From IMG/VR virus record IMGVR_UViG_3300041809_000463, positions 1 to 30,521 of that record: DNA of 30,521 nt. One strand, written 5' to 3'. Source of the DNA: a virus. Positions 4,606 to 26,375 of the stretch are shown piece by piece; position 1 is the stretch's first letter; each line of letters begins with the position of its first letter. The notes beneath the pieces are model-generated. The model worked only from the letters and a program-made list of their open reading frames with translations. It was not told where the DNA came from and did not search any database. Made by a program: the position numbers and the translations under genes.

Positions 4606-6251
4606 GTGAGCAGATGACGCTGTTGCGGCCCTACAACAATCTGCGCCTGCGCCCCTTGCGTCCACGGCAGGCTCAAGCCATCGCGGACATTCGCCAGGCC
4701 ATCAAGGATGGACATAAGCGCATCATTCTGGCTGCTCCGTGCGGATTTGGAAAAACTTTGCTTTCGGCTCATCTTATCGGTGGGGCGCTGTCAAAAGGAA
4801 CCAGACCTCTTTTCACTGCTCCGGCTATTTCTCTCATCGACCAGACCGTGAAAGCGTTCGAGTTTGAGGGCATCCGCGACATCGGAGTGATGCAGGCCCA
4901 GCACGCGAGAACCGACCGCGAGGCGCAGGTACAGGTTGCTTCCGTACAGACGCTCATCAAAAGGGCATTGCCTGATGTGGATTTTATGATGCTCGACGAA
5001 ATTCACAGAACCTACAAGGGCTTGAACGAAATGCTCGACGGGCCGTGGAAAGACAAGATCGCCATCGGCCTGACGGCTACGCCTTGGGTAAAGAGCATGG
5101 GGCTGCGCTGGACGAAGCTCATCATCCCGGCGACTATTCCGCAGTTGATCGAGGAAGAATTACTGACGCCAACTGTTCTCTACGTGCCAGAGCAAATTGC
5201 CGATCGAGGCAACATCGCAGTGCAGAAAGGCGAGTTCACCGAAGCATCAGCATCACAGGAGATGCGCCAGCAGAGGATCGTCGGGAACGTTGTCGAGACT
5301 TGGAAGAAGCTCGGACCCGGCGAAAAGGCATTCATGTTCTGCGTGAACCTGGACCACGCCAGAGCGCAGATGGCGGCGTTCATTGACTCTGGAGTTCCGT
5401 TTGGCTACATCGACGCGCAGACACCGAGCGAGGAAAGGACGCGACAGTTCCGCAAGATGTACCACGGGGAGATCGCGGGCATCGCCTCCGTCGGATGCTT
5501 GATTGCCGGGGTGGATGAGGATGTGCGCTGCATCATCGACGCGGCGCCTACCAAAAGCGAAATCAGCCTGGTACAGCGGTGGGGGCGTGGAATCAGGACG
5601 CATGTAGGGAAAAAGCATCTCATTGGCTTGGATCATGCTGGAAACAACACTGAGCAGGGCCTTGGCTTGTTCTGGGAGATATTCCACGATCACCTGGACA
5701 CGCACAAGCCGCACGAGAAGGGCGTAGCCTACGAAGGCGAGAAGCGGCCGGCGAAGCCCCGCAGGTGCGCCGCCTGCCATGCTCTTATCCCGGCAGGCAC
5801 GGCAGCCTGTAAGAACTGCGGCCAGCCCGTGAAGGCAACGGGCATCGAGCACGAAGAGGGCGAGTTGGTGGTTTATGGGACGCAGCCGAAAGACCACGAA
5901 ATCGGGGCAGCCGTGGCGTTTCTCGAAAGCAAGGGGCTGACATTCGGCGGTCAGTTCGGCTATGACAACGCCATCGCCGAGGCGGTAAAGCGTGGATTTG
6001 TCCGCAAGGGCAAGAAGCGCGAGTATACGATGCAGGAAAAGCAGGACTGGTACTCTGGCTTCCTGTGGATGGTGCGTGAGCGCGGGAAGGCTGAGGGCGC
6101 GGCTGCTCACCGATATAAAGAGAAGTTTGGAGTCTGGCCGAACAAGTTGCTCAAGGTTGCCCGTCCACCATCGTTCGAGGTCGAGCAGTTCGACAGGCAT
6201 TGCCGCATCAAGTACGCGAAGAGCAAGGCACAGGAGGCCGCGAAAGCGTGA
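4602..6251 (+). CDS. Superfamily 2 DEAD/DEAH-type helicase with zinc ribbon
   Basis: This 549-residue ATP-dependent helicase has all main SF2 motifs: Walker A APCGFGKT at 45-52, DEIH at 132-135, GLTATP at 156-161 and motif VI QRWGRGIR at 325-332. A four-Cys ribbon follows (C389, C392, C403, C406), then about 140 residues of helical C-terminal extension. It most resembles phage UvsW/RadD-like branch-migration or repair helicases. With ERF and YqaJ upstream it probably remodels recombination or fork intermediates. The start is coupled to the previous stop (ATGA), with no separate ribosome site, and the stop overlaps the GTG of the GIY-YIG gene. Confidence 0.92.
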   Translation: MSEQMTLLRPYNNLRLRPLRPRQAQAIADIRQAIKDGHKRIILAAPCGFGKTLLSAHLIGGALSKGTRPLFTAPAISLIDQTVKAFEFEGIRDIGVMQAQHARTDREAQVQVASVQTLIKRALPDVDFMMLDEIHRTYKGLNEMLDGPWKDKIAIGLTATPWVKSMGLRWTKLIIPATIPQLIEEELLTPTVLYVPEQIADRGNIAVQKGEFTEASASQEMRQQRIVGNVVETWKKLGPGEKAFMFCVNLDHARAQMAAFIDSGVPFGYIDAQTPSEERTRQFRKMYHGEIAGIASVGCLIAGVDEDVRCIIDAAPTKSEISLVQRWGRGIRTHVGKKHLIGLDHAGNNTEQGLGLFWEIFHDHLDTHKPHEKGVAYEGEKRPAKPRRCAACHALIPAGTAACKNCGQPVKATGIEHEEGELVVYGTQPKDHEIGAAVAFLESKGLTFGGQFGYDNAIAEAVKRGFVRKGKKREYTMQEKQDWYSGFLWMVRERGKAEGAAAHRYKEKFGVWPNKLLKVARPPSFEVEQFDRHCRIKYAKSKAQEAAKA

Positions 6252-6670
6252 TTGTCTATCTGTTGCGGAATGAGATCAATGGCTTTTGTTATGTGGGCAA
6301 GACGCGGGGCGTACTAAAGTCCCGTCTCCGCCAGCACCGCACCGAGATGCGGATCGGGCGGCTGGATAGCCTGCTTTACCGGGAAATGCGCCATTACGGA
6401 TGGGAGGCGTTCACGGCGGAAATACTCGGCGAACGGTCATGCGAGCGGGATCTCAACCGCCTTGAGCGCAGGATGATTAAACTCCACAACACTGTCGCCA
6501 ATGGGTACAACGAAGCGGAAGGTGCCAACGGCGGAAGGCCGATTTTCACACGCAGCAATCCGAAGATAAAGCTCTCCGCCGTGCATAAAAAGCGCATCGC
6601 CGAATCGGTGCGAGAGTCTTGGAAAGAGCGCAAGAAGAAACCGGGGGGGGCAAGTGTCGAGTTCCCGTGA
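6248..6670 (+). CDS. GIY-YIG homing-type endonuclease
   Basis: This 140-residue protein starts at a GTG overlapping the helicase stop (GTGA). The GIY-YIG signature is split as usual: IVYLL at 2-6 and CYVGKT at 14-19. The catalytic-type Arg lies in SRLRQH (about 25-30) and the Glu in LERRMIKLHNT (E73), followed by GYN at 86-88. The C-terminal 35 residues (SAVHKKRIAESVRESWKERK) look like a NUMOD3-type DNA-binding helix, typical of free-standing homing endonucleases. It lies between the helicase and DnaB-N genes and overlaps the latter by 17 bp. An 8-G run (6643-6650) sits just before its stop. Confidence 0.85.
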   Translation: MIVYLLRNEINGFCYVGKTRGVLKSRLRQHRTEMRIGRLDSLLYREMRHYGWEAFTAEILGERSCERDLNRLERRMIKLHNTVANGYNEAEGANGGRPIFTRSNPKIKLSAVHKKRIAESVRESWKERKKKPGGASVEFP

Positions 6671-7199
6671 CAAGCTAGATTCCCTCTACGTCATTTTTCG
6701 TGGCATGATCCGCGAGGAGATCGACCAGACGCCGGGCTTCCGAGAGTTGACCGGGAGTTCAGAGTTGCCCGCGAGCGTGGATGCGGAGCGGACCATTATC
6801 GGCGCTATCATGCTCGACAACGCGGCGCTGGATCAGACAAAAGAGATCAAGCCCGATGATTACTCTCTTGATTCACATAGGCGCATATTTTTAGCGATGA
6901 ACCAATTGAAAGACGCGGGGAGCACTATCGACATCGTGACGCTATCGAACCATTTGGGCGAGGATGGCTGCAAGGAGATCGGGGGAGTTGCATACCTGGC
7001 ATCACTGACTGAGGGGCTTCCGAGGCATCTAGTCACTGTCGATTACATCGCCATCGTGAAAGAGAAGGCCAAGCTGCGATCGATCATCGGCGGCTGCGAG
7101 GCTGCTATCAAAGCGTGCATGGAGCAGCAGGTGGCGGCGGCCGACATCGTGGGTGGGTTGGGCGTGGCTTTGAAGGGCATCCGGAAGGTCGGCAAATGA
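6654..7199 (+). CDS. DnaB N-terminal-domain protein without helicase motor
   Basis: This 181-residue protein matches the DnaB N-terminal helical domain: LPASVDAERTIIGAIMLDN at about 38-56, DSHRRIFLAMNQLKDAGSTI, and GGVAYLASLTEGLP. It ends just after the interdomain linker, with no RecA-like ATPase core, whereas full DnaB is about 450 residues. No continuation is found in the following genes. In DnaB this domain forms the collar and binds primase and loader, so a lone copy might recruit or poison host replication proteins; that is inference. The start is GTG at 6654 and overlaps the GIY-YIG gene; the only upstream purine tract is the 8-G run. Confidence 0.85.
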   Translation: MSSSRDKLDSLYVIFRGMIREEIDQTPGFRELTGSSELPASVDAERTIIGAIMLDNAALDQTKEIKPDDYSLDSHRRIFLAMNQLKDAGSTIDIVTLSNHLGEDGCKEIGGVAYLASLTEGLPRHLVTVDYIAIVKEKAKLRSIIGGCEAAIKACMEQQVAAADIVGGLGVALKGIRKVGK

Positions 7200-7534
7200 G
7201 CAGACCACCGGAAGCTACTACATTGCTGGCGAAGCAGTACGGCGTATCGAGACGCACGATTCAGAGGATTGGACGCTACCAGTTTGAGCGCATGACGGAA
7301 TTGGGACGGGAGTTGATGATCCTGGTGTGCAAGAACGAGCCTACATCTGTACAGGTGAGCGCTGCTATGAGGCGACTAGCCAACCATCACCCTGGCCGGA
7401 CGTTCGCGCAGCGGTGGAAGAAGCGCATCGCTGAGATTGAAGCGCGGTCGGCATGGAAAGAATCGCCGATGTTGTGGGAAGAGGAGCCAACGGAGCGGGT
7501 GAACCGTATGATGCGCTTGGTGAGGGCTGCATGA
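7196..7534 (+). CDS. HTH-containing hypothetical protein
   Basis: This 112-residue protein has a clear helix-turn-helix near its N-terminus (ATTLLAKQYGVSRRTIQRIG, about 7-26) followed by charged helices and a Trp-rich stretch (RWKKRIAEIEARSAWKESPM). The ATG overlaps the DnaB-N stop and its own stop overlaps the next ATG. The motif and the location beside DnaB-N suggest a DNA-binding replication accessory or regulator, but I do not recognise a family. Confidence 0.65.
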   Translation: MSRPPEATTLLAKQYGVSRRTIQRIGRYQFERMTELGRELMILVCKNEPTSVQVSAAMRRLANHHPGRTFAQRWKKRIAEIEARSAWKESPMLWEEEPTERVNRMMRLVRAA

Positions 7535-7923
7535 TCGACAAGCGACCAGGCGTTTGGATATACCCGGACGGGCGGGAGGTCATACGGCGCACCGAGGCAG
7601 GCCGGGCGATTCTACAGGAGCGCTGGAATATCGCTTGGCAGGTCTGCAGGGGCGTTTGCTGCCTCTGTGAGCAGCCGGTTGACCGTTTTCAGGCCACCCT
7701 CGAGCACAAGACCTCCAAGGGCTCAGGAGGCGGGAAACACGACGACCGGCAAGCGAACCTCGGGATCAGCCATTTATCCGGAAACGTCGCAAAGGGCTCT
7801 ATGAGCCTTGAGCAATACCTGAGGCTGCCGTTAGAGGTTCGGAGGCGCAACTGTTCGTCTGAGGGAAATTCTGGTCGGTCTGGGGGCATTTTAGGCGTGC
7901 AGGCGATGAGGGAGGAAGCATGA
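7531..7923 (+). CDS. HNH-type nuclease-like protein
   Basis: This 130-residue protein contains a probable HNH (beta-beta-alpha metal) core at about 43-90: CxxC at 43-46 (CCLC), EH at 58-59, N76 within RQANLG, and H81 followed by GNVAKGS. The Cys pair before the EH motif fits the zinc-stabilised HNH subgroup. The C-terminal 30 residues are basic and probably disordered. It lies in the ATGA-linked early chain between a HTH protein and a small zinc protein. It may be a homing-type enzyme or a recombination nuclease; the single CxxC could also mean a degenerate copy. Confidence 0.65.
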   Translation: MIDKRPGVWIYPDGREVIRRTEAGRAILQERWNIAWQVCRGVCCLCEQPVDRFQATLEHKTSKGSGGGKHDDRQANLGISHLSGNVAKGSMSLEQYLRLPLEVRRRNCSSEGNSGRSGGILGVQAMREEA

Positions 7924-8087
7924 GCAAGGAACGGAAGTGCAAGTATTGCGGAGAGCCTATCGAGGCGATCTCTTACCACGGCCACACGTGGCGTCACGTC
8001 AAAACCTGCCTGTTCATGTGCTTCAAAGACCGCAAACCGCGCCGGGGCGATAAGAACTACTTCGAGGCAGAACCGGAGGAACCATGA
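7920..8087 (+). CDS. 55-residue zinc-ribbon peptide
   Basis: A short frame begins MSKERKCKYCGEPI, with GGAGGAA at 7911-7917 before the ATG and ATGA overlaps with both neighbours. Cys7 and Cys10 (CKYC), His20/His22 and Cys31/Cys35 give a plausible single zinc site. It is the last small gene before the terminal nuclease of the early operon. Function is unknown. Confidence 0.7.
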   Translation: MSKERKCKYCGEPIEAISYHGHTWRHVKTCLFMCFKDRKPRRGDKNYFEAEPEEP

Positions 8088-8392
8088 AGCGCGAGTCACG
8101 CGGCGAGCGCCTATTCGCCTTCCACTGCCAGGTGAACAAGCTGACGCCGGAGCGTGAATTTCGCTTCGATCAGGCGCGGCGCTGGAGGATCGACTTTGCG
8201 TGGCCCGATAGAAAGCTGGCTGTCGAGGTCGAATCGAGCGTGCATCGCATCAAGGGCAGGTTCGCCCGCGACATGGACAAGTACAACGCGCTCCAGATGC
8301 AGGGCTGGTTACTACTCAGGTTCACCTACAAGATGATTCAGACGGGGCAGCCGATATTGGACGTGATTGCGGCCCTGAATAGCTCCGTGTGA
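8084..8392 (+). CDS. Vsr/DUF559-like PD-(D/E)XK endonuclease
   Basis: This 102-residue protein has the compact pattern of Vsr/DUF559-type nucleases common in phage replication operons. EREFRF (about 24-29) precedes RRWRIDFAWPDRKLAVEVES at 32-51, with Asp37 and Glu48/Glu50 as likely metal ligands. A helix with RDMDKYNALQMQGWLLLRFT follows, the usual conserved C-terminal block. Possible jobs are nicking branched or mismatched DNA, or Holliday-junction processing; the family is diverse. Its ATG overlaps the preceding stop, and it closes the early rightward operon. Confidence 0.75.
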   Translation: MKRESRGERLFAFHCQVNKLTPEREFRFDQARRWRIDFAWPDRKLAVEVESSVHRIKGRFARDMDKYNALQMQGWLLLRFTYKMIQTGQPILDVIAALNSSV

Positions 8393-8890
8393 CGTTTCCA
8401 GATTAAAAGCGGGTCAGACGCACGTTCCCCTAGAGGGATCAGGGGACGTTCACTGGGAGTGATTTGGTGAACCGGGCCCCTCATGTTTGGCCGTGTTCTG
8501 GAGCCTGCCGATTCGAGCAGACTCAAACCCTGACGACAGTTCACCGTCGCCGGAAGTCCACCGAATCCTCGAAGCTGCCTATGAGCGCCTTGAACCAAGC
8601 TGCATCCTGAGCATGTCGCTCCCCCGCCGGACGGCAGACCACAACGGGCACGGCCCAGGCGCACGAATGCGGAGTCTTTGACGCGCGAATTGTCAGAGAA
8701 TTTACCCTCATGTGACCCTGGACTCTTGCAGAGTAGCACGGGTTTTGGTAATCTACAAGTGCTCTCGTGGCCTGGACTCCAAGAGTGCAATGCTCTAAGT
8801 GGAAACCCCCGGACTCCTTCACAGGAACCGGGGGTTTGGTTTTGGTGGGAGTTTGTCTTGCAGACGTTGGAGCGAGGGGGTGTTGCGGAA
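8393..8890. other. Gene-poor zone between convergent operons
   Basis: About 500 bp separate the end of the rightward early operon from the end of the leftward ParB-like operon. Two hairpins lie near the left end: ACGTTCCCCT pairing with AGGGGACGT (8422-8449, one bulge), and GTTCAC/GTGAAC (8448-8453 and 8467-8472). A strong hairpin is at 8803-8837. A 64-codon plus-strand frame at 8487-8681 has a plausible helical stretch (EVHRILEAAYERLEP) but a weak start and no ribosome site, so it is not called. No tRNA is visible. Confidence 0.5.
8803..8837 (+). terminator. Hairpin terminator between convergent operons
   Basis: AAACCCCCGG (8803-8812) and CCGGGGGTTT (8828-8837) form a perfect 10-bp stem with a 15-nt loop, followed by GGTTTTGG. 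It lies between two facing operons, where a bidirectional terminator is expected. The T-tract is interrupted, so its efficiency is uncertain. Confidence 0.55.
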
Positions 8891-9667
8891 CTAAAGTGTC
8901 TGACCGGCAGCGGCAAGCACCTTATCGGCCAGTGCTTCCAGCTTCTCAAAAATCAAGTCGTCGTGGATCACGTGGCGGGCTAGGTCGCAGGCAAGTGTGG
9001 CCAAGCTACTCGCTTCTTTCGATGGTTTCGTTGGTTTGCCTGTCTCGCGTTCAATGTCTGCCTTGGTGACCTTGCCCGTCTTTTCGGCAACCTCCGCCAA
9101 CTTCTTCTGGTGCTCCTTTGAGAGCTTGGCGACAGCCTTCGCGGCCGGTCCCTTGATGGTGCCTTTGCGGATCTGCTTCTCGACTTCCGGCGTGGCCTCG
9201 ATAAGGGTCAGCCTGCTCTTCACCCAAGAGACTGATGCACGATAGGCGTCCGCGCACTCCTGCTCGGTCATCTGGTACACATTGACGAGACGCTGCAGGT
9301 TGTAGGCGTCATCCATCGGCGTCGTCGCGTTCCTGACCCGGTTCTCTTCGATGTTGGCGAGGAAGGCTTGCTTCTCGGTCAACTGGGTGTAGGAGCAGCG
9401 CAGAGAGAGCGGCTTTTCGGTGAGCTTGTCTTTGTTGATCTTGCTGATGGCCCGCCAGCGCGAGAACCCGGCGACCAGAACAGGCTTACCGGCTGTGCGG
9501 CGGATCGTGACAGGTTGTAACTGGCCGTGGCGCAGAATGGAATCGACAATCCAGCCGATGTCGGGAAGGTCATGCCTTCCGTTCATCGCGGGGTCTACGT
9601 CCAACTGCTCGGGCAGGAATAGGTATTCGGATGTGCGGGTGCCTTTGACTTCAAATTCAACAGCCAT
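8891..9667 (-). CDS. ParB/Srx-like DNA-binding protein
   Basis: This 258-residue protein has ParB N-domain features: LPEQLDVDPAMNGRHDLPDI (about 18-37), PVTIRRTAGKPVLVAGFSRW (52-71) with the GxxRW nucleotide-box pattern, and IEENRVRNATTPMDDAYNLQ (107-126). A HTH follows (MTEQECADAYRASVSWVKSR, 133-152), then a Lys/Ala-rich helical tail. ParB proteins bind specific DNA sites and CTP. No ParA is present, so it may be a phage regulator or a genome-segregation relic rather than a partition system. AAGGAAAA precedes the ATG. It is the last gene of the leftward operon. Confidence 0.85.
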   Translation of the reverse strand: MAVEFEVKGTRTSEYLFLPEQLDVDPAMNGRHDLPDIGWIVDSILRHGQLQPVTIRRTAGKPVLVAGFSRWRAISKINKDKLTEKPLSLRCSYTQLTEKQAFLANIEENRVRNATTPMDDAYNLQRLVNVYQMTEQECADAYRASVSWVKSRLTLIEATPEVEKQIRKGTIKGPAAKAVAKLSKEHQKKLAEVAEKTGKVTKADIERETGKPTKPSKEASSLATLACDLARHVIHDDLIFEKLEALADKVLAAAGQTL

Positions 9668-9686
9668 CGGGTTTTCCTTTCGTCGG

Positions 9687-9863
9687 TTATGGTCGGAAGA
9701 AGGGCGCGAGCAGCATCAGAACTAAGCACACGATGGCCCCAATGACCGCCCAAATTGTAAAGTCGTGGAATGGATCAGCGTGCGGAATGACGTAGGGGTG
9801 ATATGAGTCATCGCCGGCGCACTCCTGCTCTTTGTCGTAGCTGCCTGTGATCTCGATTTTCAT
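9687..9863 (-). CDS. 58-residue single-span membrane peptide
   Basis: A short frame begins MKIEITGSYDKEQECAGDDS and ends in one strong transmembrane segment (FTIWAVIGAIVCLVLMLLAP, about 35-54) followed by FFRP. The N-terminal part is acidic and polar. It overlaps the neighbouring gene by ATGA. A membrane-anchored accessory such as superinfection exclusion is possible; a holin is not supported because no lysis genes are nearby. Confidence 0.65.
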   Translation of the reverse strand: MKIEITGSYDKEQECAGDDSYHPYVIPHADPFHDFTIWAVIGAIVCLVLMLLAPFFRP

Positions 9864-10036
9864 GGTTCGTCGCTTTCCGCCTGGAGCATGGCAATAATCC
9901 GCTCCTGCTTTGCAGTGAAGGTTCGTGTGGATTCGTTGGCGATTTCTTCGGCTTCCTCATCGCTGTAAAGTGCTCCACAGCAAATACAGGCGAGCTGATT
10001 CTTCCACCAATCCGATGTGTGCGTGCATTTTGTCAT
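9860..10036 (-). CDS. 58-residue Cys-rich zinc peptide
   Basis: A short frame begins MTKCTHTSDWWKNQLACICC, with Cys4, His6, Cys17 and Cys19/20 able to bind one zinc, followed by an acidic helix. Both ends overlap neighbours by ATGA (10033-10036 and 9860-9863), which strongly supports its being real. Function is unknown. Confidence 0.65.
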   Translation of the reverse strand: MTKCTHTSDWWKNQLACICCGALYSDEEAEEIANESTRTFTAKQERIIAMLQAESDEP

Positions 10037-10236
10037 ATCCCCACCCCATGTATTGCGTAGACAACTTCTTTCACTGCTTCGATTTCCGCGAGCGTGGCAA
10101 GCTGTAGATTACGATAGCGCACAGCTCTGATTTCCAATTCTTCGCGTTCGCGGTCGGTGATGTCGCGGTAGCACGATTCCACGTCGCAAACGGCCGCAAA
10201 GTACCCCAACTCTTCGGCTTCCTGTTCGGCCGTCAT
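10033..10236 (-). CDS. 67-residue acidic helical protein
   Basis: The protein begins MTAEQEAEELGYFAAVCDVE and is Glu/Arg-rich and helical (DITDREREELEIRAVRYRNL). It is tied to both neighbours by 4-bp overlaps. No family is recognised. Confidence 0.65.
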   Translation of the reverse strand: MTAEQEAEELGYFAAVCDVESCYRDITDREREELEIRAVRYRNLQLATLAEIEAVKEVVYAIHGVGI

Positions 10237-10460: not shown

Positions 10461-10475
10461 ATCTGCTCCTTTTGC

Positions 10476-10622: not shown

Positions 10623-10643
10623 GCTAATCCCTCGTTTTACCGC

Positions 10644-10853: not shown

Positions 10854-10937
10854 GTGCTCCTTTTTCCGCCGGGTTACGTACCGGCACCAGCTACCACGCT
10901 GGACGCTCCGCTTACCGTGGAGACGGCGCGGCGAAGG

Positions 10938-11754: not shown

Positions 11755-11761
11755 GGTGGTG

Positions 11762-12551: not shown

Positions 12552-12686
12552 GAAATGATCTGCGCAATGTCCAATCTTGTCTGTAGCTGGTGTCTTGGCA
12601 CGCCGACGCGGTTCTGTGGGGATGTGCAGTTCTGCGAGAAGTGCTGGGCGCTCTACGTGTACGAGATGCGCAAGGCGGAGTGGAGG
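12552..12686 (+). repeat. 135-bp gene duplication, copy A
   Basis: This segment recurs at 13592-13726 with 132 of 135 identities; all three differences lie in the first 30 bp. It covers the start and the zinc-binding core of a small gene, while the 3' ends differ completely. Confidence 0.9.
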
Positions 12687-12740
12687 CGGAGGGGGTCGCT
12701 TTGGACAAGCCCGAAAGCTGTCCAACCTGAGGTTTGCTGA
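12555..12740 (+). CDS. Zinc-ribbon peptide, paralogue A
   Basis: This 61-residue protein begins MICAMSNLVCSWCLGTPTRF. Cys10/Cys13 and Cys27/Cys30 (CSWC and CEKC) form a treble-clef-like zinc site with a Trp/Tyr-rich helix (CWALYVYEMRKAEW). AGGA precedes the ATG by about 6 nt. It is almost identical over residues 1-43 to the protein at 13595, but its C-terminal 18 residues (RGSLWTSPKAVQPEVC) are unrelated. Such peptides often bind host proteins or nucleic acid; the target is unknown. Confidence 0.75.
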   Translation: MICAMSNLVCSWCLGTPTRFCGDVQFCEKCWALYVYEMRKAEWRRRGSLWTSPKAVQPEVC

Positions 12741-13173: not shown

Positions 13174-13598
13174 TGGAAGACAAGGAACTGACCTCCGATG
13201 ACAACTGGTGTCCTGATTGCGGGGAACCGCGTGAGGCTTGCAAGTGTATTCCTCCCGTGGACCGCTCAAAACGCTGCATGTTGAGCGGGAAACCTGAGAC
13301 GCCTGAGCACCGGGAAATTGACCCCGCAACCGGAATGCAGAAAGACTATGTTGTGCTCTGTCCGCAAGAGAGAGCCAAAGGATTCGTCAAGCCTGTTAGG
13401 CGATCATACCGGCATCTGACTTGCGGCTCGATTACTACGATGGGACTCGCGCTAGCCGAGACATACGCGCGCGATCCGAACTTCTACTCAGGAACCATGT
13501 GCGTGAACTGTCACGCTCATTTCCCGCTCAATCAGTTCAAGTGGGAAGATGGCGAACCAATGGACCCGGCGTTACAAGAGGAACCTGAGGCGAAATGA
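13173..13598 (+). CDS. Two-zinc phage-type protein
   Basis: This 141-residue protein has an N-terminal CPDCGEPREACKC group, a central HLTCGSITTMGLALAETYAR, and FYSGTMCVNCHAHFPLNQFK near the C-terminus, so two zinc sites are likely. The HLTCG...ETYARDP...CxxC layout recurs in siphophage accessory regions as a conserved protein of unknown role. AAAGGAG at 13161-13167 favours the ATG at 13173; a GTG at 13170 overlaps the previous stop. The stop overlaps the start of the paralogue B gene. Confidence 0.8.
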   Translation: MEDKELTSDDNWCPDCGEPREACKCIPPVDRSKRCMLSGKPETPEHREIDPATGMQKDYVVLCPQERAKGFVKPVRRSYRHLTCGSITTMGLALAETYARDPNFYSGTMCVNCHAHFPLNQFKWEDGEPMDPALQEEPEAK

Positions 13599-13726
13599 TC
13601 TGCGGAATGTTCAATCTCGTCTGTAGCTGGTGTCTTGGCACGCCGACGCGGTTCTGTGGGGATGTGCAGTTCTGCGAGAAGTGCTGGGCGCTCTACGTGT
13701 ACGAGATGCGCAAGGCGGAGTGGAGG
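13592..13726 (+). repeat. 135-bp gene duplication, copy B
   Basis: Copy of 12552-12686, displaced by 1,040 bp, 132 of 135 identical. It runs from the start codon region through the zinc core and stops abruptly at codon 43, where the two C-termini diverge. Confidence 0.9.
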
Positions 13727-13741
13727 AAGAAGGCAGCATGA
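13595..13741 (+). CDS. Zinc-ribbon peptide, paralogue B
   Basis: This 48-residue protein begins MICGMFNLVCSWCLGTPTRF and keeps the CSWC/CEKC zinc core of paralogue A, but ends in KKAA instead of an 18-residue tail. Its ATG overlaps the preceding stop and its stop overlaps the next ATG, so it is embedded in a tightly coupled chain, unlike copy A, which has its own leader hairpin. Confidence 0.75.
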   Translation: MICGMFNLVCSWCLGTPTRFCGDVQFCEKCWALYVYEMRKAEWRKKAA

Positions 13742-16409: not shown

Positions 16410-17031
16410 TGTTACCCGCAATATCGTTCGTGCGGTCGGGAGTGTGGATTTGGCAGTCAAGGCACTGGCTGCAGATGAATCGGAAGATGCCCAAACGTTT
16501 ATCCGATTCCGTGAACGAATCAGTCCGTCAGATTTACGCCGCACCACTCTGGAAGAACAATTCACAGCAGCAGGTATTAGTGCTCGCCGCTTTATCGAAG
16601 TCTTGACGGGCGCCCTCATGCAGCAATGTCAGGACGTGACCAAGATGATGGTCGCCGTCGCCCAGCCCAAGGTGGTGCAGGCTACCATCAAAGCGGCCAC
16701 CGATCAGGTGCCAATCGTTGCCGACATCGGCGACCGGCGCGTAGTAGTCGGCCACACCAACGGCGATACGAAGGCTATGGAAATCTTCCACAAGGCCACT
16801 GGATTCCTGCCGACGCCTAAGGGATCGAATACCACCATCAATCTGAACCAGAATAATCTCAATGCCAACGTGGAATCTGGGAATGATGGTGAACCGGGAG
16901 AACTTCAGAGTATGGATGATTTTTTACTCGACATGCAAGACGTGGTGGCACCCCAAGCGCAGCTTCCCGCTCCACGAGAAACGGTTCCAGTGATCGTTCC
17001 AGAGGTCGAATATCTAGATGCGGAGGTATAA
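16390..17031 (+). CDS. Probable terminase small subunit
   Basis: This 213-residue protein begins MMEGVPDVTRNIVRAVGSVD; GTG 16378 and ATG 16207 are alternative starts, the latter overlapping the neighbour by 203 bp and judged unlikely. It is helical through the middle (EEQFTAAGISARRFIEVLTG, then DVTKMMVAVAQPKVVQATIK), then has DTKAMEIFHKATGFLPTPKG, a segment seen in proteins just before large terminases, and an Asn-rich acidic C-terminus. Small terminases recognise packaging sites and form rings that load TerL. Position, size and composition support the role, with no definitive motif. Confidence 0.5.
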   Translation: MMEGVPDVTRNIVRAVGSVDLAVKALAADESEDAQTFIRFRERISPSDLRRTTLEEQFTAAGISARRFIEVLTGALMQQCQDVTKMMVAVAQPKVVQATIKAATDQVPIVADIGDRRVVVGHTNGDTKAMEIFHKATGFLPTPKGSNTTINLNQNNLNANVESGNDGEPGELQSMDDFLLDMQDVVAPQAQLPAPRETVPVIVPEVEYLDAEV

Positions 17032-17086: not shown

Positions 17087-17596
17087 ATGAGCACCCCTGA
17101 TTCATCCTACCGCAAAATCCCACTTACGCAAGGGCAAGTGGCTCTGGTCGATGCCGACCTCTATGAATTTCTTAATCAGTGGAAATGGCACGCTGCATGG
17201 TCCGAAAAGACACAGAGCTTTTATGCTCGTCGTAATGGTCCTCAAGTTGGTGGTCGTAGGAGTCCTTGGATTTACATGCATCGTCTGGTCTTGGGCTTGG
17301 AGCACGGCGACCCGCATCAGGGCGACCATCGAGAGCCGAGCGAAACGCTCGATAACCGCCGGGCTAACCTGAGGAAATCGACTGGCGGACAAAACAGGAG
17401 TAATACTAGAAAAAGGAAAAACACCGCCTCTAAGTTTAAGGGGGTTTGCCGTTCGCGCCAGAAATGGGCTGCCTATATCACCGTAGGGGGAAAGACGATA
17501 TATCTAGGAGTGCGAGACACAGAAGAAGCGGCCCATTTAGAACTTTACGTACCTGCCGCTGAAAAGTATCACGGTGAATTTGCGAGGATGGCATGA
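17087..17596 (+). CDS. HNH homing endonuclease with AP2 DNA-binding domain
   Basis: This 169-residue protein has the layout of free-standing HNH-AP2 homing endonucleases. The N-terminus (IPLTQGQVALVDADLYEFLN) is followed by the HNH core with MHRLVLG (H65), GDH (80-81) and LDNRRANLRKST (89-99, N90/N94). An AP2 domain runs from about 117 (SKFKGVCRSRQKWAAYITVG) to 166 (GEFARM). It probably cuts DNA lacking this insertion and so spreads by homing. GGAGG lies about 10 nt before the ATG. It sits between the probable small terminase and the large terminase. Confidence 0.9.
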   Translation: MSTPDSSYRKIPLTQGQVALVDADLYEFLNQWKWHAAWSEKTQSFYARRNGPQVGGRRSPWIYMHRLVLGLEHGDPHQGDHREPSETLDNRRANLRKSTGGQNRSNTRKRKNTASKFKGVCRSRQKWAAYITVGGKTIYLGVRDTEEAAHLELYVPAAEKYHGEFARMA

Positions 17597-17787
17597 GTGT
17601 GTGGCGTCGTTTTCTTTCGATCACTATTTGTCGCATTGTCGGTCACACTAAACCTGCGTGGCAGAATTTTTTCATTCCGTGGAGTGGCGGATGGATTAAG
17701 CAGAGTGGACAATGCAAACGCTGTTGGATGGTTATCGACGAGCGCGAAGTATGGGCTGGTGTTGATCGAGGGGATGCGCAGTTGTAG
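17593..17787 (+). CDS. Small zinc-like protein before TerL
   Basis: This 64-residue protein begins MSVWRRFLSITICRIVGHTK, with a His and CKRC (41-44) that could bind zinc, and several Trp. The ATG overlaps the nuclease stop, and the next gene begins 10 bp after its stop. Possibly a hitch-hiker moved with the nuclease gene; function unknown. Confidence 0.6.
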   Translation: MSVWRRFLSITICRIVGHTKPAWQNFFIPWSGGWIKQSGQCKRCWMVIDEREVWAGVDRGDAQL

Positions 17788-17796: not shown

Positions 17797-19911
17797 ATGT
17801 ACAGCCCGCGAATAGTTCTGGAGAAATTAGCGAGGTTTAAACAGAAATATTCATGGCTCCCCGTCGAGCACTCCATCGAAGAAATAGATCGCGTCAACGC
17901 CCACATGAAAACGCTCTACCGCAAGGATGCGAAGGGCGACCTGATCTTCGACGATTCGCAACTGACAAAGCCTCTTGAGCGGTGGATTCAGAACGAGCGT
18001 GCGATGTGCGCTCTGAGTTTTGAATACTACGTCACCCGCTACCACTACATTTCTGCAAACAACCGGATTTTCCGCTTCAAATTCCGTGGCGGTCAGCGCG
18101 TCCTCTTCAATGTCATTCAGGACTTGGAGGATCGTGGTCTTTCCATCGAAATCATGCTGCTCAAGGCGCGGCAGGGCGGTTTCTCAACGTTTGTTGAAGC
18201 GCTGATGACCCACCGGGCGCTGTTTGTCCCCGGCGTGAAATGTACCATCGGTTCCGCAAACGATCAGAAAACCTACGTGATGATGGGCATGATGTACACG
18301 GCGCTTGAGAATCTGCCGTGGTGGTTGCCCCCGCAGCAGACGAAAGACAAACGCTCCGGGGCAGCTCTCTTGGAGTTCGCGCACGTAGGCTCGCAGATTG
18401 TCATTCAGTCCGGCTCGATTCGCACCGGCATCGGCCAGGGCACGTCGCCAACGGCTGTACATCTTTCCGAAGTCTGCGATTACACGGACCCGGTGGAGCA
18501 GATTGAAGAAGGTCTGTTTCGTGCCGTCCATCCGGGACCGGAAATCCTGATGATCCTGGAATCGACAGGAAACGGAAACGATACCTGGTGGGCGAAGCTG
18601 TGGCACAGCACGCGCAGGCTGGTGAAAGTCTTTATTCCGTGGTTTATGACGCCTGAGCTTTACCCGTCGCCTGAATGGTTGAAACAGTACCCCATGCCTG
18701 CCGACTGGATGCCGAACACACGCACGTTGGCGACGGTTGCGAAGTGCGAGGCGTATGCCCACTGTACCGAGGTTCTGAGCCGGGTGCTCGGGGCGAAATG
18801 GAAGATGCCAAAAATTCAGCAATGGTTTTGGGAGTTCAACTACGAAGAGGCGCGGGACCGGGGGTTGGATAAGTCATGGACGCGCCACATGCCCTGCGAT
18901 GCTTACGACGCTTTGATCGGCGAGAATGATCTTCAGTACGATCGCAAAGCTGTTGAGGAAATGAAGGAACGTCGAGCGAAGACCGTAGATGTGTACGGCC
19001 TGATCGGTGAAGGCATCGCCGAGAGGCACGATCCGCCGGCAGTCGAAGGCGTAATCGACCCCGACAAGCCGCGCATCGTCATCGAGTGGAAAACGCCGCA
19101 CGACATCAGACTTGAGTGGGTGATGATGCCGCTGCTGGGGGATTACGAATCTCCGGCCTTCGACCCGATGAACAAGGTTCTGATTTTCAAGCACCCGGAA
19201 GAGGGGGCACGGTATTCAATCGGCGTCGATACCGGAACAGGCGTGGGCGGCGACCGGAACGCGCTGTGGGTCAACAAGTGTGGCGAGGATGCCATGCCAG
19301 ATGAGCAAGTCGTGGAGTTCGCTTCCGACACAATATCGAACGTGGAAATCTACGCATGGGCTCTGGCTCTCGGAGCATACTACGGAATTTACCTCGAAGA
19401 ATCTCAGGTGCGGTACGTGATCGAGCAGCGCCGGAAGTATGGAGATTCCTGCTATCACGCTTTGAAACTCCACGGCATGAGGTCGCACCATCATTTCAGG
19501 GAGTACGACAAGCGAACCATGCGACCGAAACCAAGCGTAAATGCTCGCGAGGGTTGGTGGACAAACGAATGGTCACGGCCTTTGCTCTTGGGAGTGTTCC
19601 AGCACGCCACGGAAAACGGCTGGTGCATTGTCAATTCGAGGTTTGCTATCGAGGAGATCGAAGCGTCTGAGCAGCGCATGACGAGCGGCGGCAAGACCCG
19701 TGAAGATCATCGTTCCGACATGCACGATGACCGCAAGTTTGCCGGGGCGATGGCCTATTTCACCTTCCACGATAACGATCTTATGGGCGAAAGGTCAAAA
19801 GCGCGGTACAATTCTTCGCAGGACGAGGGCTACGAAGTGGACTATCGCCCTTGGGTGCAAACGGTGCCGAATACACTTGCAAAAGAATGGTTTGAAAGGT
19901 ACGCGGAATGA
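17797..19911 (+). CDS. terL: Terminase large subunit (TerL)
   Basis: This 704-residue packaging motor and nuclease has a Walker A-like motif LLKARQGGFST at 121-131, a Walker B/catalytic strand AVHLSEV at 220-226, and a coupling motif LESTGNG at 254-260. The RNase H-like nuclease domain shows YSIGVDTGTGVGGDRNALWV (473-492, Asp478 as first metal ligand) and, near the C-terminus, DMHDDRKFAGAMAYF. Both domains appear intact. No clear ribosome site precedes the ATG at 17797, so the exact start could be a little downstream. It is preceded by a homing endonuclease and followed by portal-region genes in the usual head-gene order. Confidence 0.93.
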   Translation: MYSPRIVLEKLARFKQKYSWLPVEHSIEEIDRVNAHMKTLYRKDAKGDLIFDDSQLTKPLERWIQNERAMCALSFEYYVTRYHYISANNRIFRFKFRGGQRVLFNVIQDLEDRGLSIEIMLLKARQGGFSTFVEALMTHRALFVPGVKCTIGSANDQKTYVMMGMMYTALENLPWWLPPQQTKDKRSGAALLEFAHVGSQIVIQSGSIRTGIGQGTSPTAVHLSEVCDYTDPVEQIEEGLFRAVHPGPEILMILESTGNGNDTWWAKLWHSTRRLVKVFIPWFMTPELYPSPEWLKQYPMPADWMPNTRTLATVAKCEAYAHCTEVLSRVLGAKWKMPKIQQWFWEFNYEEARDRGLDKSWTRHMPCDAYDALIGENDLQYDRKAVEEMKERRAKTVDVYGLIGEGIAERHDPPAVEGVIDPDKPRIVIEWKTPHDIRLEWVMMPLLGDYESPAFDPMNKVLIFKHPEEGARYSIGVDTGTGVGGDRNALWVNKCGEDAMPDEQVVEFASDTISNVEIYAWALALGAYYGIYLEESQVRYVIEQRRKYGDSCYHALKLHGMRSHHHFREYDKRTMRPKPSVNAREGWWTNEWSRPLLLGVFQHATENGWCIVNSRFAIEEIEASEQRMTSGGKTREDHRSDMHDDRKFAGAMAYFTFHDNDLMGERSKARYNSSQDEGYEVDYRPWVQTVPNTLAKEWFERYAE

Positions 19912-22462: not shown

Positions 22463-22695
22463 CGCCATTTGACAGTAAGCAGTTTGAAGTCAAGCGTGAA
22501 GATCAGGCTATAGCCACATGGAAAGGGCCGAAGGATGCGGCGACACTGGCGCAGTTGATCGAGTTGTTTCTGCGCGAGAAATGGCGGGGGCAGTTCGTGG
22601 TTTCTTTCCCTGGCAATGGTGGGATAAACGACGTGATTTTCACGGAGCGCAAGACGCGGAAGATTGTCGAGGAGCGCGAAGATACCCCCTACTGA
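22459..22695 (+). CDS. Small hypothetical protein after portal
   Basis: This 78-residue protein starts at a GTG overlapping the portal stop (GTGA). It is a compact alpha/beta sequence (MTPFDSKQFEVKREDQAIAT, then FVVSFPGNGGINDVIFTERK). No family is recognised. It lies before a promoter that separates it from the next genes. Confidence 0.65.
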   Translation: MTPFDSKQFEVKREDQAIATWKGPKDAATLAQLIELFLREKWRGQFVVSFPGNGGINDVIFTERKTRKIVEEREDTPY

Positions 22696-22706
22696 AAAGA
22701 AAAAGT

Positions 22707-22737
22707 TTGACAGGCGGGGTGCGATTGGGTTTATAGT
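22707..22737 (+). promoter_or_regulatory. Promoter before scaffold/capsid genes
   Basis: TTGACA (22707-22712), a 19-bp spacer and TATAGT (22732-22737, 5 of 6). The spacer is longer than ideal but the boxes are excellent. It lies 111 bp before the 38-residue basic peptide and would drive scaffold and capsid. Confidence 0.5.
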
Positions 22738-22848
22738 GTTCGACAGACGAGATTCTGATTCGTGCCCTACTCGGGGATACGCGACATGGCTCGGGAGCGA
22801 AGAGGCTTCCGGGCCTTTTCTATTTCAGTCAACCGAGAGGAGAGAATC

Positions 22849-22965
22849 ATGGCAAAGCATCGCGTGAAAAAGCACAAGGGCGGACACAAGAAGGGTCATC
22901 GTGGCCTGAAAATCCACGGCGGCTTCAAGGCGATGGAGCACAAGAAGGAACGGCGCAAGCGCTAA
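22849..22965 (+). CDS. 38-residue Lys/His/Arg-rich peptide
   Basis: A short frame begins MAKHRVKKHKGGHKKGHRGL and ends with HKKERRKR; about half of its residues are basic. GAGGAGAG precedes the ATG by about 4 nt, and its stop shares a base with the next ATG. It lies directly upstream of the scaffold/capsid genes and behind a promoter. A nucleic-acid neutralising or capsid-interior peptide is likely; no named family. Confidence 0.65.
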   Translation: MAKHRVKKHKGGHKKGHRGLKIHGGFKAMEHKKERRKR

Positions 22966-23204
22966 TGGCCGCTGGTCCCCAGATCGCACCACCGCAACAG
23001 GGCGCTCCGCCACAACCGGCAGGGGCACCCAGCGGTGCGGTGGTGCAGATCATTCGCCAGCTTGACCAGCTTTCGCAGGCGCTAGGCCAAGTCTTTCCGG
23101 CGGCTTCGGAAGAGGCTTCCGGGATTCAGAAACTCGTTCAGCAAATCCAGTCCAAGGTAGCGCAAACGGTGAAACCGACCCAGCCGCAAGCGCCGCCAAT
23201 CTAG
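22965..23204 (+). CDS. Pro/Gln-rich small head-region protein
   Basis: This 79-residue protein begins MAAGPQIAPPQQGAPPQPAG (disordered) and continues with an amphipathic helix (VVQIIRQLDQLSQALGQVFP) and a second helix to a Pro-rich end. Its ATG overlaps the preceding stop. Similar disordered-plus-helix proteins occur beside scaffolds; role unknown. Confidence 0.65.
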   Translation: MAAGPQIAPPQQGAPPQPAGAPSGAVVQIIRQLDQLSQALGQVFPAASEEASGIQKLVQQIQSKVAQTVKPTQPQAPPI

Positions 23205-23211
23205 GAGAGAA

Positions 23212-24021
23212 ATGCCTGATATTCGAGAAATTCTGAAAGAACGCGGCATGGCCGACGCCGAAGCCGAAGCGATGATTGGCAATCCCGCCTACAAAACCAT
23301 CCTCGAAGCGTTCGTAGCGGACGCGGAGGCTGGCAAGACCTCTCTCCTCAAAGCGCAGGAGATCGAGACGAATCTCAAGAAGTGGAAAACCGAAGTGGTC
23401 GATCCCCACTACCTCAAGAAAGATCAGGAGTACGCGCAGGCTCAGGCGAAGTTGGCCGAGCGCACAGCGTATCTCAAGAGTTTGAAGGAACAGGGCTACG
23501 AAGTTCCCGATGCGTGGCTGGCTGACGGTGCGCCGCCCCCGGACCCCAAGAATCCCCCCGTTCCCGTGATCCCCGAAGGCACCTACGTCAAGCCCGACGC
23601 GCTCGATCAGCAGGGCAGGGCCTACATGAGCCTGATGTCGATGTCGGAGCGTGCCAGAGACCTCTTGGGTCATGGCCTCGATGTCGAAGCCGAGTATGAC
23701 GATTTCGGCAAGAACAAGCGCCCCGGCGAGAAGCTACGCGAGTACATCGACCGCAAGTACGACCTGTCCACGAAGCAGCGCGAGAAGGATGCGGCCGCCG
23801 CCGCTGCCGAGAAAGCAAGGATTAAGGCCGAAGGTGTTGAGGAGTACAAAGCGGCGCATCCCGAATCGGCCAGCCCCGAACTTGCGCGTCCCGCTGCAAC
23901 CAAGTTTGACAAGTTCCAATCTCTACCCGAGGACAAGAAAAACTCGTGGCAGACCGAAGTCGGGCGCGAGGCGGCAACGCTTGCGCGGCAGAAGAAGTAC
24001 GAGAGTTTGTTGGTGCATTAA
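23212..24021 (+). CDS. Probable capsid scaffolding protein
   Basis: This 269-residue protein lies in the scaffold position, just before capsid (with a homing gene between). It is helical and charged: an N-terminal domain with MPDIREILKERGMADAEAEA, coiled segments at about 60-100, a Pro-rich hinge (PPPDPKNPPVPVIPEG), then an Ala/Lys/Glu-rich coil (KQREKDAAAAAAEKARIKAE) and a basic C-terminal helix that would contact capsid. GGAGAG precedes the ATG. No protease motif is seen. Assignment is by position and composition. Confidence 0.7.
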   Translation: MPDIREILKERGMADAEAEAMIGNPAYKTILEAFVADAEAGKTSLLKAQEIETNLKKWKTEVVDPHYLKKDQEYAQAQAKLAERTAYLKSLKEQGYEVPDAWLADGAPPPDPKNPPVPVIPEGTYVKPDALDQQGRAYMSLMSMSERARDLLGHGLDVEAEYDDFGKNKRPGEKLREYIDRKYDLSTKQREKDAAAAAAEKARIKAEGVEEYKAAHPESASPELARPAATKFDKFQSLPEDKKNSWQTEVGREAATLARQKKYESLLVH

Positions 24022-24032
24022 CAAGGAGCGGT

Positions 24033-24581
24033 ATGGCAAGCAGTTATTCATCCGAAGTAGCCCGTAATATTCCGCCTACGCGGACGCCAAGCGAGTTGGA
24101 TATCGCGTGGATGGCGGGTATCTACGAGGGTGAGGGCTGTGTGGCCGGAATTAAGGGTCGGACAATCGCCAACGTGCATCAAAAAGACCCTGAAATCCTA
24201 TATCGCATCCGCGAAATGTTCGGTGGAAGCATCACCGAAATTCGTAAAGGAACTCCGAAAAACTGCCACGTATGGAAACTTTATGGCGACGTGGCGCGGT
24301 CCATGTTCCACGCGATATTCCCGTACCTGTCGACTCGCCGCAAGATGCAGGTCGAGAAGTCCGGTGGTTTGCGGTTTACTGGGATGCCTTGCTATCGGGA
24401 AATGAAAATCAGCGCCGAACGCAAGGCAAAACGTGCGGGGATGACTCAGAAGCAAAAGATGGTCGAGAGCCAACTTTACTATCAGAGCAAGAACCGCGAA
24501 AAGGTTTTGGCCGCGAATCGTAAGTACGCCGCAGCGACCCGGCAACGGCACAAGGAACAAGTGTCGCAAACGATTCAGTAA
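24033..24581 (+). CDS. LAGLIDADG-type homing endonuclease
   Basis: This 182-residue protein has one LAGLIDADG-like motif, WMAGIYEGEGC at 26-36 (Glu34 as the catalytic-position acid), followed by a beta saddle (IANVHQKDPEILYRIREMFG, then CHVWKLYGDVARSMFHAIFP). A single motif implies a homodimer. The C-terminus is basic and helical (SKNREKVLAANRKYAAATRQ). AAGGAG lies 5 nt before the ATG. It sits between scaffold and major capsid genes, leaving both uninterrupted, so it is free-standing rather than intron- or intein-borne. Confidence 0.8.
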   Translation: MASSYSSEVARNIPPTRTPSELDIAWMAGIYEGEGCVAGIKGRTIANVHQKDPEILYRIREMFGGSITEIRKGTPKNCHVWKLYGDVARSMFHAIFPYLSTRRKMQVEKSGGLRFTGMPCYREMKISAERKAKRAGMTQKQKMVESQLYYQSKNREKVLAANRKYAAATRQRHKEQVSQTIQ

Positions 24582-24594
24582 CAGGAGATAAGTG

Positions 24595-25782
24595 ATGCCT
24601 GATCCTACATTTAACGGGGACATCCAGAGCTCGACGTTCAACGATTACATCGCTGATGTTGCCTACGACAATTTCTTCGTGAAGACGGCCTACCAGCAGC
24701 ACATGCGGGCCATCGGCGCTGTCGATCCATTCACGGGCGGCAAGTTGATGGAGGAGCCCTTCATCATGGGTTCCCCGGCCTCCGGGTTCGCGGCTCCGGG
24801 CACGAACTTCGAGATTGAGCATGTCCAGCAACTTGCGGCGATGGCCTTCCCGCCTCGCCTCTGCACGTCGCGGGATATGTTCGAGACGTTCTCGCTCCAG
24901 GTGCAGAACAAGGGTCCGAACGCGCGAATCAAGCTCAAGGATTTGTACTACCGCAACGCCATCGCTTCGATCTCGACCAACGTCGAAGTTGCGGCCTACC
25001 ATCACGGCCAAGCTGCTATCGCGAACCAGATTTCCGATGACGGCTCACTGCGCATCAACGGCATGGCTGAGGCGCTGAACGATGGCAAGAACAACTCCTG
25101 GGATGGGAACTACTACCTGAACTACGGGTATCAGCTTCGCAACGGCAACATCGGCCCCGCGAACAACTCCATCCCTGTGTTCTTTGGCAATGCGGACGGC
25201 ACGGCGGCGGCAATCTCAGTGCGTCAGCTCATCAACTTCCTCGTGCGCCAGCGCAAGTTCTGCGAGGGCAAGTCGCCGGAAATCACGATCACCACGCCGA
25301 ACGGGTGGGGATACATTCTGTCCGCTCTCCAGACGCAGCAGCAATTCACAACGGCGTGGGATGGCAAGTTCAAGAACCTTCCCACGGTTCCCGATACCGA
25401 AGGCATCGCGTTTCTCGGCACGGTCATCTACGACGACATCCTGACGCCGGGCGCGGCCTGGGGTGCTGACTTCGACACCGCCTACATCACGGCGGGCAAC
25501 AACCTCACAACGACCTTCAGTTCAAGCTCTACTTGCACGGGCGTAACAAGCCCGTCGAATATGCCGGCCTCGACCACTCTGACCGTGGGCGAGACGCTGT
25601 GGGCGCTGACAGGGCGGGCATGGAAGTACCGCCCCACGGACGACCCGGATTTCCTGTTCGGCGCACGCGAGAATCAGGTGTACAACAACAACACGAACGA
25701 TGCCTGCCTGATTAACTTGGCGCTAAACGTGTACTCGCCGTCGCCGCGCATGTCGGGACAGGCATTTGGTTTCAATGGGTGA
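24595..25782 (+). CDS. Major capsid protein
   Basis: This 395-residue protein follows the scaffold locus and is the best major capsid candidate. AGGAG at 24583-24587 supports the ATG at 24595 (a GTG lies 3 bp upstream). The sequence begins MPDPTFNGDIQSSTFNDYIA and is Asn/Gly/Ala-rich with a mixed alpha/beta pattern consistent with the HK97 fold, including a long helix region (LINFLVRQRKFCEGKSPEIT) and TTPNGWGYILSALQTQQQFT. No delta-domain or protease site is evident. HK97 fold is inferred from context; a structure prediction would settle it. Confidence 0.75.
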   Translation: MPDPTFNGDIQSSTFNDYIADVAYDNFFVKTAYQQHMRAIGAVDPFTGGKLMEEPFIMGSPASGFAAPGTNFEIEHVQQLAAMAFPPRLCTSRDMFETFSLQVQNKGPNARIKLKDLYYRNAIASISTNVEVAAYHHGQAAIANQISDDGSLRINGMAEALNDGKNNSWDGNYYLNYGYQLRNGNIGPANNSIPVFFGNADGTAAAISVRQLINFLVRQRKFCEGKSPEITITTPNGWGYILSALQTQQQFTTAWDGKFKNLPTVPDTEGIAFLGTVIYDDILTPGAAWGADFDTAYITAGNNLTTTFSSSSTCTGVTSPSNMPASTTLTVGETLWALTGRAWKYRPTDDPDFLFGARENQVYNNNTNDACLINLALNVYSPSPRMSGQAFGFNG

Positions 25783-25811
25783 CGCAAGTATTTGATTTAA
25801 TTGGAGATAGC

Positions 25812-26375
25812 ATGAAGAAGGCATTCAAGACGCACTCGCAGGGAATGGCAGGAGTTTACGCCGTGGCCTCGCGTCTGTGCCTTCTCGGTCATACTCCGTT
25901 CTTTCCGTCTGTCGATTTTGGCGTGGACATCATGCTGGATAACGGATTGAAGTTGCAGGTGAAATGTGGTCGTCTCCGCAAACATAAGGCTTATCCGAAC
26001 GGGGCATACAGTTTCGATGTTCGGAAGGCATTCACAATTGTCGGCCATACCGTTATCAAGCATCAAAAGGAGCGGACCTACGTCGGGACGTGCGATTTCA
26101 TTGTGTTTTGGGGTATTGACGAAGATAGGTTCTTTGTCATCCCATGCGCTTCGATGGAGGGGGCTGTATGGATACCCCCGAAGCATTCACACCGAGGGAA
26201 CCAGCGCAACCCAACCACTGTCGGGAGAATGCTTCAATGTGAGGAAGCGTGGCACTTGCTCGACGTGAACGGCACTATCGAGCAGCAAGAACAGGTTGAA
26301 TCTCAGGACGGGGCGGATGTGGTCATGTGCAATGGCGCTCTCATTCGACTTATTCCTGAGCTGAGCAACGGCTAA
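25812..26375 (+). CDS. PD-(D/E)XK nuclease-like protein after capsid
   Basis: This 187-residue protein has a plausible PD-(D/E)XK core: a helix SQGMAGVYAVASRLCLLGHT (9-28), then VDFGVDIMLDNG (34-45, Asp39) and LKLQVK (46-51) with Gln49 and Lys51, followed by CDFIVFWGIDEDRFFVIPCA (94-113). This Asp...QVK layout matches intron-associated or free-standing homing-type enzymes such as the I-Ssp6803I group. GGAG before the ATG at 25812 favours it over 25779, which would overlap the capsid gene. It is wedged between capsid and the next structural gene. Confidence 0.65.
   Translation: MKKAFKTHSQGMAGVYAVASRLCLLGHTPFFPSVDFGVDIMLDNGLKLQVKCGRLRKHKAYPNGAYSFDVRKAFTIVGHTVIKHQKERTYVGTCDFIVFWGIDEDRFFVIPCASMEGAVWIPPKHSHRGNQRNPTTVGRMLQCEEAWHLLDVNGTIEQQEQVESQDGADVVMCNGALIRLIPELSNG

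Follow-up and report, generated by a model that had tools for sequence, protein, structure and literature searches.

Free-standing genes for probable homing endonucleases of four unrelated folds, three of them at head-gene junctions, in a metagenomic phage contig

The free-standing homing endonucleases of T4 belong to the GIY-YIG and HNH families. I-CreI, I-MsoI and I-CvuI are encoded by introns, as is I-Ssp6803I, in which we take a QxK motif to be the catalytic pattern. Intronless homing has been defined (PMC6083498), the same source reserving the term collaborative homing for cases in which an intron nearby shields the nuclease target. Furthermore, homing endonuclease genes (HEGs) of interchangeable classes have been published from ICP1 and its relatives (Barth et al. 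2023, PMC10448857), where they form HEG-islands beside genes for capsid, tail and replication functions, and the phenomenon treated here is already known as a kind from that work. We describe here the IMG/VR virus record IMGVR_UViG_3300041809_000463, a whole contig of 30,521 bases from a soil phage, called the window below. It carries four nuclease genes of unrelated folds, whose open frames lie where the original prediction, made from the letters alone, had placed them. They are listed below with the two inserts that could be delimited (lengths in amino acids, aa).

6248..6670, plus strand: GIY-YIG endonuclease gene, 140 aa, between a DEAD/ResIII helicase gene and a gene for a DnaB N-terminal domain
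17087..17596, plus strand: HNH-AP2 endonuclease gene, 169 aa, between the probable small terminase (TerS) and the large terminase (TerL) genes; phrog_99, 1.8e-29
24033..24581, plus strand: single-motif LAGLIDADG endonuclease gene, 182 aa, motif WMAGIYEGEG, between the probable scaffold and the major capsid genes
24022..24581, plus strand: probable LAGLIDADG insert, from the scaffold stop to just 5' of the capsid Shine-Dalgarno, carrying its own Shine-Dalgarno
25812..26375, plus strand: PD-(D/E)XK endonuclease gene, I-Ssp6803I-like, 187 aa, after the major capsid gene; invariant D39 and Q49-x-K51
25783..26380, plus strand: approximate PD-(D/E)XK insert, from the capsid stop to just 5' of the Shine-Dalgarno of the next gene

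The claim that these proteins represent four unrelated nuclease folds holds, directly by profile for GIY-YIG and HNH-AP2 and by family matches and models for the two others, for which profile searches succeeded once relatives were included. The GIY-YIG catalytic domain scores over the cut-offs of both PF01541 (1.1e-9, 38.9 bits for a cut-off of 22.6) and the NCBIfam model TIGR01453 (58.4 for 56.05), and the protein also matches phrog_314 (6.7e-20); the GTG start of its gene overlaps the stop of the helicase gene. Both HNH and AP2 domains are recognized in the HNH-AP2 family: the window protein matches phrog_99 with a sub-threshold AP2 domain (0.0038), and its homologues in L009 and L150 match AP2 plus HNH_3. 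The LAGLIDADG protein, as a single sequence, matches PF14528 weakly (0.0014); 11 of 19 family members match this profile and G-x-Y-E-G-E-G, with its acidic residues, is invariant in the family. Its AlphaFold model (predicted local distance difference test, pLDDT, 80.9) matches I-CvuI, I-MsoI and I-CreI, with a best E of 7e-6 and 39 chains below 1e-3. Since it has one motif, the protein is probably a homodimer. As a single sequence, the PD-(D/E)XK protein matches no profile, and a sequence search against the PDB returned spurious matches only (e.g., ribosomal L13), so that a fold search was needed. However, six of ten family members match PF11645 (PDDEXK_5, best 4.9e-7), D39, Q49 and K51 are invariant across all ten, and the top PDB match of the AlphaFold model (pLDDT 76.6) is I-Ssp6803I (2OST, E 4.8e-8, template modelling score 0.72 on the target). 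In a homologue from L019 (11771-12427), the C-terminal half includes an additional helix-turn-helix, plausibly a swapped DNA-binding module.

About 200 loci, labelled L with a number, were gathered by scans with TerL, capsid, LAGLIDADG, PD-(D/E)XK and helicase queries, and the comparison took in about 80 distinct related head modules. The arrangement is found again in further IMG/VR contigs (L002, L005, L067 and L068), which match it at more than 99% identity, and is therefore not a misassembly. The nearest relative of the window is a 48-kb record (L003/L007; capsid 85% and TerL 69% protein identity). Its three head junctions lack the HNH gene, the 64-aa gene that follows it in the window, the LAGLIDADG gene and the PD-(D/E)XK gene, and a search of its 48 kb for the four nuclease families gave no match. 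Megablast with the window as query found no match among annotated phages; the cultured relatives reached by tblastn with the capsid are distant Tunturiibacter phages only, described as podoviruses (PMC11924767). One capsid relative sits within an Acidobacteriaceae metagenome-assembled genome. As the cultured relatives infect Tunturiibacter and this capsid relative lies in an acidobacterial genome, the host of the phage is probably an acidobacterium.

Siblings that are 94-99% identical differ precisely by the presence or absence of LAGLIDADG, PD-(D/E)XK or HNH genes, the insertions lying between genes and preserving the downstream ribosome-binding site. For example, the LAGLIDADG site spans 690 nucleotides (nt) in L124 and 29 nt in L125 (flanks 98.8% identical), and 577 nt in L107 versus 22 nt in L055 (94%); further pairs are L059/L036 and L173/L121, while a LAGLIDADG relative separates L017 from L020 at a different junction (98-99.9%). 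At the PD-(D/E)XK site it is L055 that is filled (560 nt versus 2 nt in L107, flanks 94.0-94.4%), these two phages carrying complementary nuclease genes at adjoining sites. HNH-AP2 genes distinguish L039 from L041 and, between the capsid gene and the next gene, L150 from L151 (588 versus 20 nt, 98.8%). Two cultured phages of the same host strain (Tunturiibacter psychrotolerans X5P2), Tunturi_1 (L220) and Tunturi_2 (L221), with head modules 98.7% identical, differ after the portal gene by 691 nt with an HNH gene (4970-5660) versus 122 nt (4970-5091), the flanks being 98.4% and 99.3% identical. In the window, the genes adjoining each nuclease gene have intact open frames. The Shine-Dalgarno of its capsid gene, CAGGAGATAAGT, is kept in the empty relative L007 directly in front of the capsid gene, and that of the gene after the PD-(D/E)XK insert, AAGGAGATAG, lying just past the insert end, is common to L007. 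The leader of this insert, TTGATTTAATTGGAG, is also found in the PD-(D/E)XK insert of L076. LAGLIDADG genes are under purifying selection, family pairs showing ratios of nonsynonymous to synonymous substitution (dN/dS) of 0.08-0.19. A once-occupied and decayed LAGLIDADG site occurs in L097, where only about the last 39 codons of the gene (E 1.8e-4) are left immediately before the capsid gene. The genes thus prove to be free-standing, optional and, for three families, mobile, three of them sitting at head-gene junctions with their neighbours left open, as had been proposed; the refuting case, an identical set of genes and positions in every close relative, did not arise, for relatives differ strongly.

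It seems highly probable (about 0.88) that the four genes are free-standing HEGs of unrelated folds that spread by intronless homing. Most likely, each enzyme would cut a conserved sequence at or near a core-gene junction in co-infecting phages devoid of the nuclease gene. Repair from the intact genome would then place a copy of the nuclease gene between the two core genes without damage to either of them or to the ribosome-binding site that follows. The head module of these phages would supply several homing sites. Within the group, the scaffold–capsid junction would be used by LAGLIDADG only, the junction between capsid and next gene almost only by I-Ssp6803I-like PD-(D/E)XK, and many junctions by HNH-AP2; occupation of a site would be transient, with gain, upkeep under selection, decay and loss. 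Cutting, the target sequence and super-Mendelian inheritance are inferred, as is any mobility of the GIY-YIG gene at its own site. The original prediction spoke of collaborative homing, a term that presupposes an intron at the target site (PMC6083498). Rfam gave no intron match in the window or in five relatives, and intronless homing is therefore the right term.

A survey of the junctions reveals how closely sites and families are associated. The gap between scaffold and capsid genes was compared in 79 distinct cases: it is empty (at most 253 nt) in 52 and contains a single plus-strand LAGLIDADG gene in the other 27, no other family being found in any of the 79. Between capsid and next gene, 67 of 79 gaps are empty (at most 116 nt) and the others hold one PD-(D/E)XK gene each, except in L150, which has an HNH-AP2 gene on the minus strand. 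The scan directed at LAGLIDADG inflates the counts of filled sites; unbiased counts, taken from capsids found by scans not aimed at nucleases, are 16 filled and 52 empty for LAGLIDADG, and 10 filled and 57 empty for PD-(D/E)XK. It is tempting, if rather doubtful, to go further and to see these head junctions as long-lived homing loci, each owned by one family, with nucleases acting as weapons among siblings. If this were true, nucleases would decide which capsid and terminase alleles survive in mixed infections, and a phage with several unrelated folds would overwrite its siblings at several points simultaneously.

Mutual exclusion, suggested in the original prediction, is not supported: LAGLIDADG and PD-(D/E)XK are found together no less often than expected (both genes in 4 cases, one of them in 10 and 6, neither in 45; odds ratio 3, p 0.2), and exclusion of one by the other was not seen. 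By contrast, the view that four folds together are unusual stands. Among 30 large related records, LAGLIDADG is found in 10 (one being the L097 remnant), PD-(D/E)XK in 5, GIY-YIG over cut-off in 2 and phrog_99 HNH in 18; three folds occur together in three records (L019, L029 and L047) and four in none. Because the window was chosen for having four, this rarity is a description and not a test.

The strongest of the rival explanations, although improbable, is that of domesticated nucleases serving the phage, with the HNH protein acting in DNA packaging and the others cutting rival phages in interference competition. The HNH gene does lie between the TerS and TerL genes, HNH proteins can be packaging parts (PMC5304195), and phage PhiPA3 is reported to owe a competitive advantage to an intron endonuclease (PMC11620839); purifying selection would also fit. 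However, constant companionship with terminase genes, as in HK97 gp74-like packaging HNH proteins, is not seen: the HNH gene is missing from the TerS–TerL junction in L007, L008, L015, L017 and most relatives, and is therefore dispensable for packaging. The window gene belongs moreover to the HNH-AP2 group, whose members occupy seven or eight junctions on both strands, including TerS–TerL, TerL and its next gene, both sides of the portal gene, the gap that follows the capsid gene and, on the minus strand, sites further downstream. A possible role in competition would be compatible with homing. Three HNH-AP2 pieces were also observed in the single head module of L010, two at the TerS–TerL junction (5664-6128 and 6201-6413, apparently one gene broken in two) and one before the portal gene (9166-9651). 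Another head-module site was noticed directly after the portal gene, where L029 (14927-15571) and about five other relatives carry GIY-YIG plus NUMOD3 genes.

Less probable still is an origin of the four genes as old, vertically inherited residents of the head operon, lost many times independently without active homing. The occupation of the same sites in distant relatives would be expected in this case, as would the correlation between LAGLIDADG and capsid distances (Mantel rho 0.69). On the other hand, the capsid tree of 83 phages shows 20 or more changes of occupancy for LAGLIDADG and 10 or more for PD-(D/E)XK, siblings that are 98.8% identical already differ, and HNH-AP2 genes sit at many junctions on both strands. 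Furthermore, the LAGLIDADG gene of L115 groups with that of L143 (84% aa identity) and not with that of L107 (69%), whereas the capsids of L115 and L107 are 99% identical. This conflict has moderate support, the approximately unbiased (AU) test giving p 0.016 for a group picked after viewing the tree, and it argues moderately for LAGLIDADG transfer between lineages in at least one case.

Several observations nevertheless count against intronless homing or narrow its reach. The Mantel correlation implies that most movement is among near kin, and part of the pattern could be inheritance plus loss. The window's own empty comparisons are relatives with 85% (capsid) and 69% (TerL) protein identity, not siblings: LAGLIDADG presence/absence is given by family pairs such as L124/L125 and for the window itself only by relatives such as L007, and at the TerS–TerL junction the HNH gene contrasts with diverged relatives only, its family providing the sibling pairs. 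The GIY-YIG gene is missing after the helicase gene only in the distant L069 (74% nt identity), whose next gene differs as well. Finally, identity falls within 100 nt of many insertions, which could have been proof of co-conversion at the capsid 5' end had same-state pairs not dropped there too. On the 3' capsid side of the PD-(D/E)XK site, divergence is specific to filled/empty pairs (deficit 0.127 versus 0.035, p 9e-4, pairs non-independent), and local divergence lends modest support to homing at this site only.

That these are nuclease-like or misassembled sequences without function, as the weak single-sequence Pfam score for LAGLIDADG and its absence for PD-(D/E)XK might suggest, can practically be dismissed and is already contradicted for these two families by family-level matches, confident core models resembling homing endonucleases, intact frames, dN/dS well under 1 and the same arrangement in other metagenome contigs.

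The neighbours of the three head-module nuclease genes are the following.

16420..17031, plus strand: probable TerS gene, to the left of the HNH insert; named from its position, with conservation in 45 loci
17593..17787, plus strand: 64-aa gene without assigned function, 3' of the HNH gene, whose stop it overlaps, and before TerL
17797..19911, plus strand: TerL gene; phrog_2, 2.4e-14
23212..24021, plus strand: probable scaffold gene, by position and composition, conserved in 48 loci
24592..25782, plus strand: major capsid protein gene, homologue of the Tunturi major head protein (26.5%), conserved in 43 loci
26402..27076, plus strand: head-module gene 3' of the capsid gene, kept at this place in most relatives; right neighbour of the PD-(D/E)XK insert

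Among the names given to these neighbours in the original prediction, those of TerL and of the major capsid protein are supported by sequence similarity, the latter also matching NF033394 under its cut-off (3.9e-7). TerS, which matches no profile, and scaffold are probable names that come from position and conservation. The 64-aa gene has no family match and was found only in the phage population of the window; it perhaps belongs to the HNH insert as cargo. In several relatives, TerL is enlarged by in-frame inserts (L050:8969-13000, L052:8249-11512, L047:10061-13012 and L045:3979-6924) with sub-threshold to moderate signatures of Hint/intein splicing and, in L050 and L052, of LAGLIDADG_3; these inserts are taken to be inteins. 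The portal–scaffold inserts of relatives that were scanned include a TnpB/OrfB-IS605 protein with a Cas12f-like TNB domain (PF01385, 4.4e-29); its likely bearers are minus-strand genes of about 400 aa (e.g., L121:1885-3093 and L134:969-2171).

The GIY-YIG gene adjoins a 181-aa gene (6654-7199) encoding a DnaB N-terminal domain without the ATPase part (PF00772, 2.5e-23), of which only near-identical copies were found in the 16 related records searched. Nearby lie genes for an HNH-like protein (7453-7923; phrog_5718, 2.7e-5) and a DUF559/REase-like protein (8084-8392; PF04480, 1.2e-5), and the window therefore contains more than four nuclease genes. In G015, the record of L150, an in-frame stretch of about 1.1 kb splits the helicase homologue (46178-48802) inside a single 896-aa frame and resembles another intein. 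Other features are a ParB-like protein (8891-9667, minus strand; HTH_ParB, 2.9e-11), a 142-nt direct repeat (12552-12693 and 13592-13733, 96% identical and 1,040 nt apart) and, at the contig end (1-98), 3.6 copies of a 27-nt tandem repeat, of which L067 has more at its start, while L069 has an array that is similar.

The closest described systems share only part of these traits. In HEG-islands (PMC10448857), too, essential loci, among them those for capsid morphogenesis, are flanked by free-standing genes for endonucleases of several classes, just as the capsid gene of the window lies between the LAGLIDADG and PD-(D/E)XK genes; a phage there also carries multiple classes, and one PD-(D/E)XK gene was noted in a tail operon. 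However, cognate positions there take interchangeable classes, whereas here the scaffold–capsid site takes LAGLIDADG only and that between capsid and next gene almost only PD-(D/E)XK; furthermore, the LAGLIDADG gene here is free-standing and not in an intein, and the phages are probably those of Acidobacteriota. The PD-(D/E)XK protein shares the D...QxK pattern with I-Ssp6803I, its best structural match, but the genes of this family are free-standing, next to a phage capsid gene, and the L019 member has the added helix-turn-helix. That of the window sits between two intact genes, with no Rfam intron, and is not intron-encoded, which lowers the likeness in context and not that in mode of action. 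The LAGLIDADG protein has the fold and single motif of I-CreI, I-MsoI and I-CvuI, but is free-standing and has a long helical C-terminus (residues 139-181). The free-standing HEGs of T4-like phages and F-CphI (PMC2988022, PMC6083498) likewise are optional genes between conserved genes with intronless homing, but F-CphI acts with an intron, in collaborative homing. Tunturi_1 and Tunturi_2 have a homologous head module with the same gene order and differ by an HNH gene; however, their capsid is just 26.5% identical to that of the window and their HNH gene belongs to another subfamily. What is new is the fidelity of one family per site, twice over, in this phage group, the four folds in 30 kb, the free-standing I-Ssp6803I-type genes beside the capsid gene and the cultured plus/minus pair. 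I-Ssp6803I-type PD-(D/E)XK and LAGLIDADG genes are mobile here as free-standing phage genes, in sibling pairs 94-99% identical. Together the modules form a large natural data set in which the arrival, persistence and loss of free-standing homing genes at fixed sites of a conserved head module can be followed, in phages whose host phylum has received little study, and Tunturi_1 and Tunturi_2 are cultured phages suited to direct tests of homing and of phage–phage competition.

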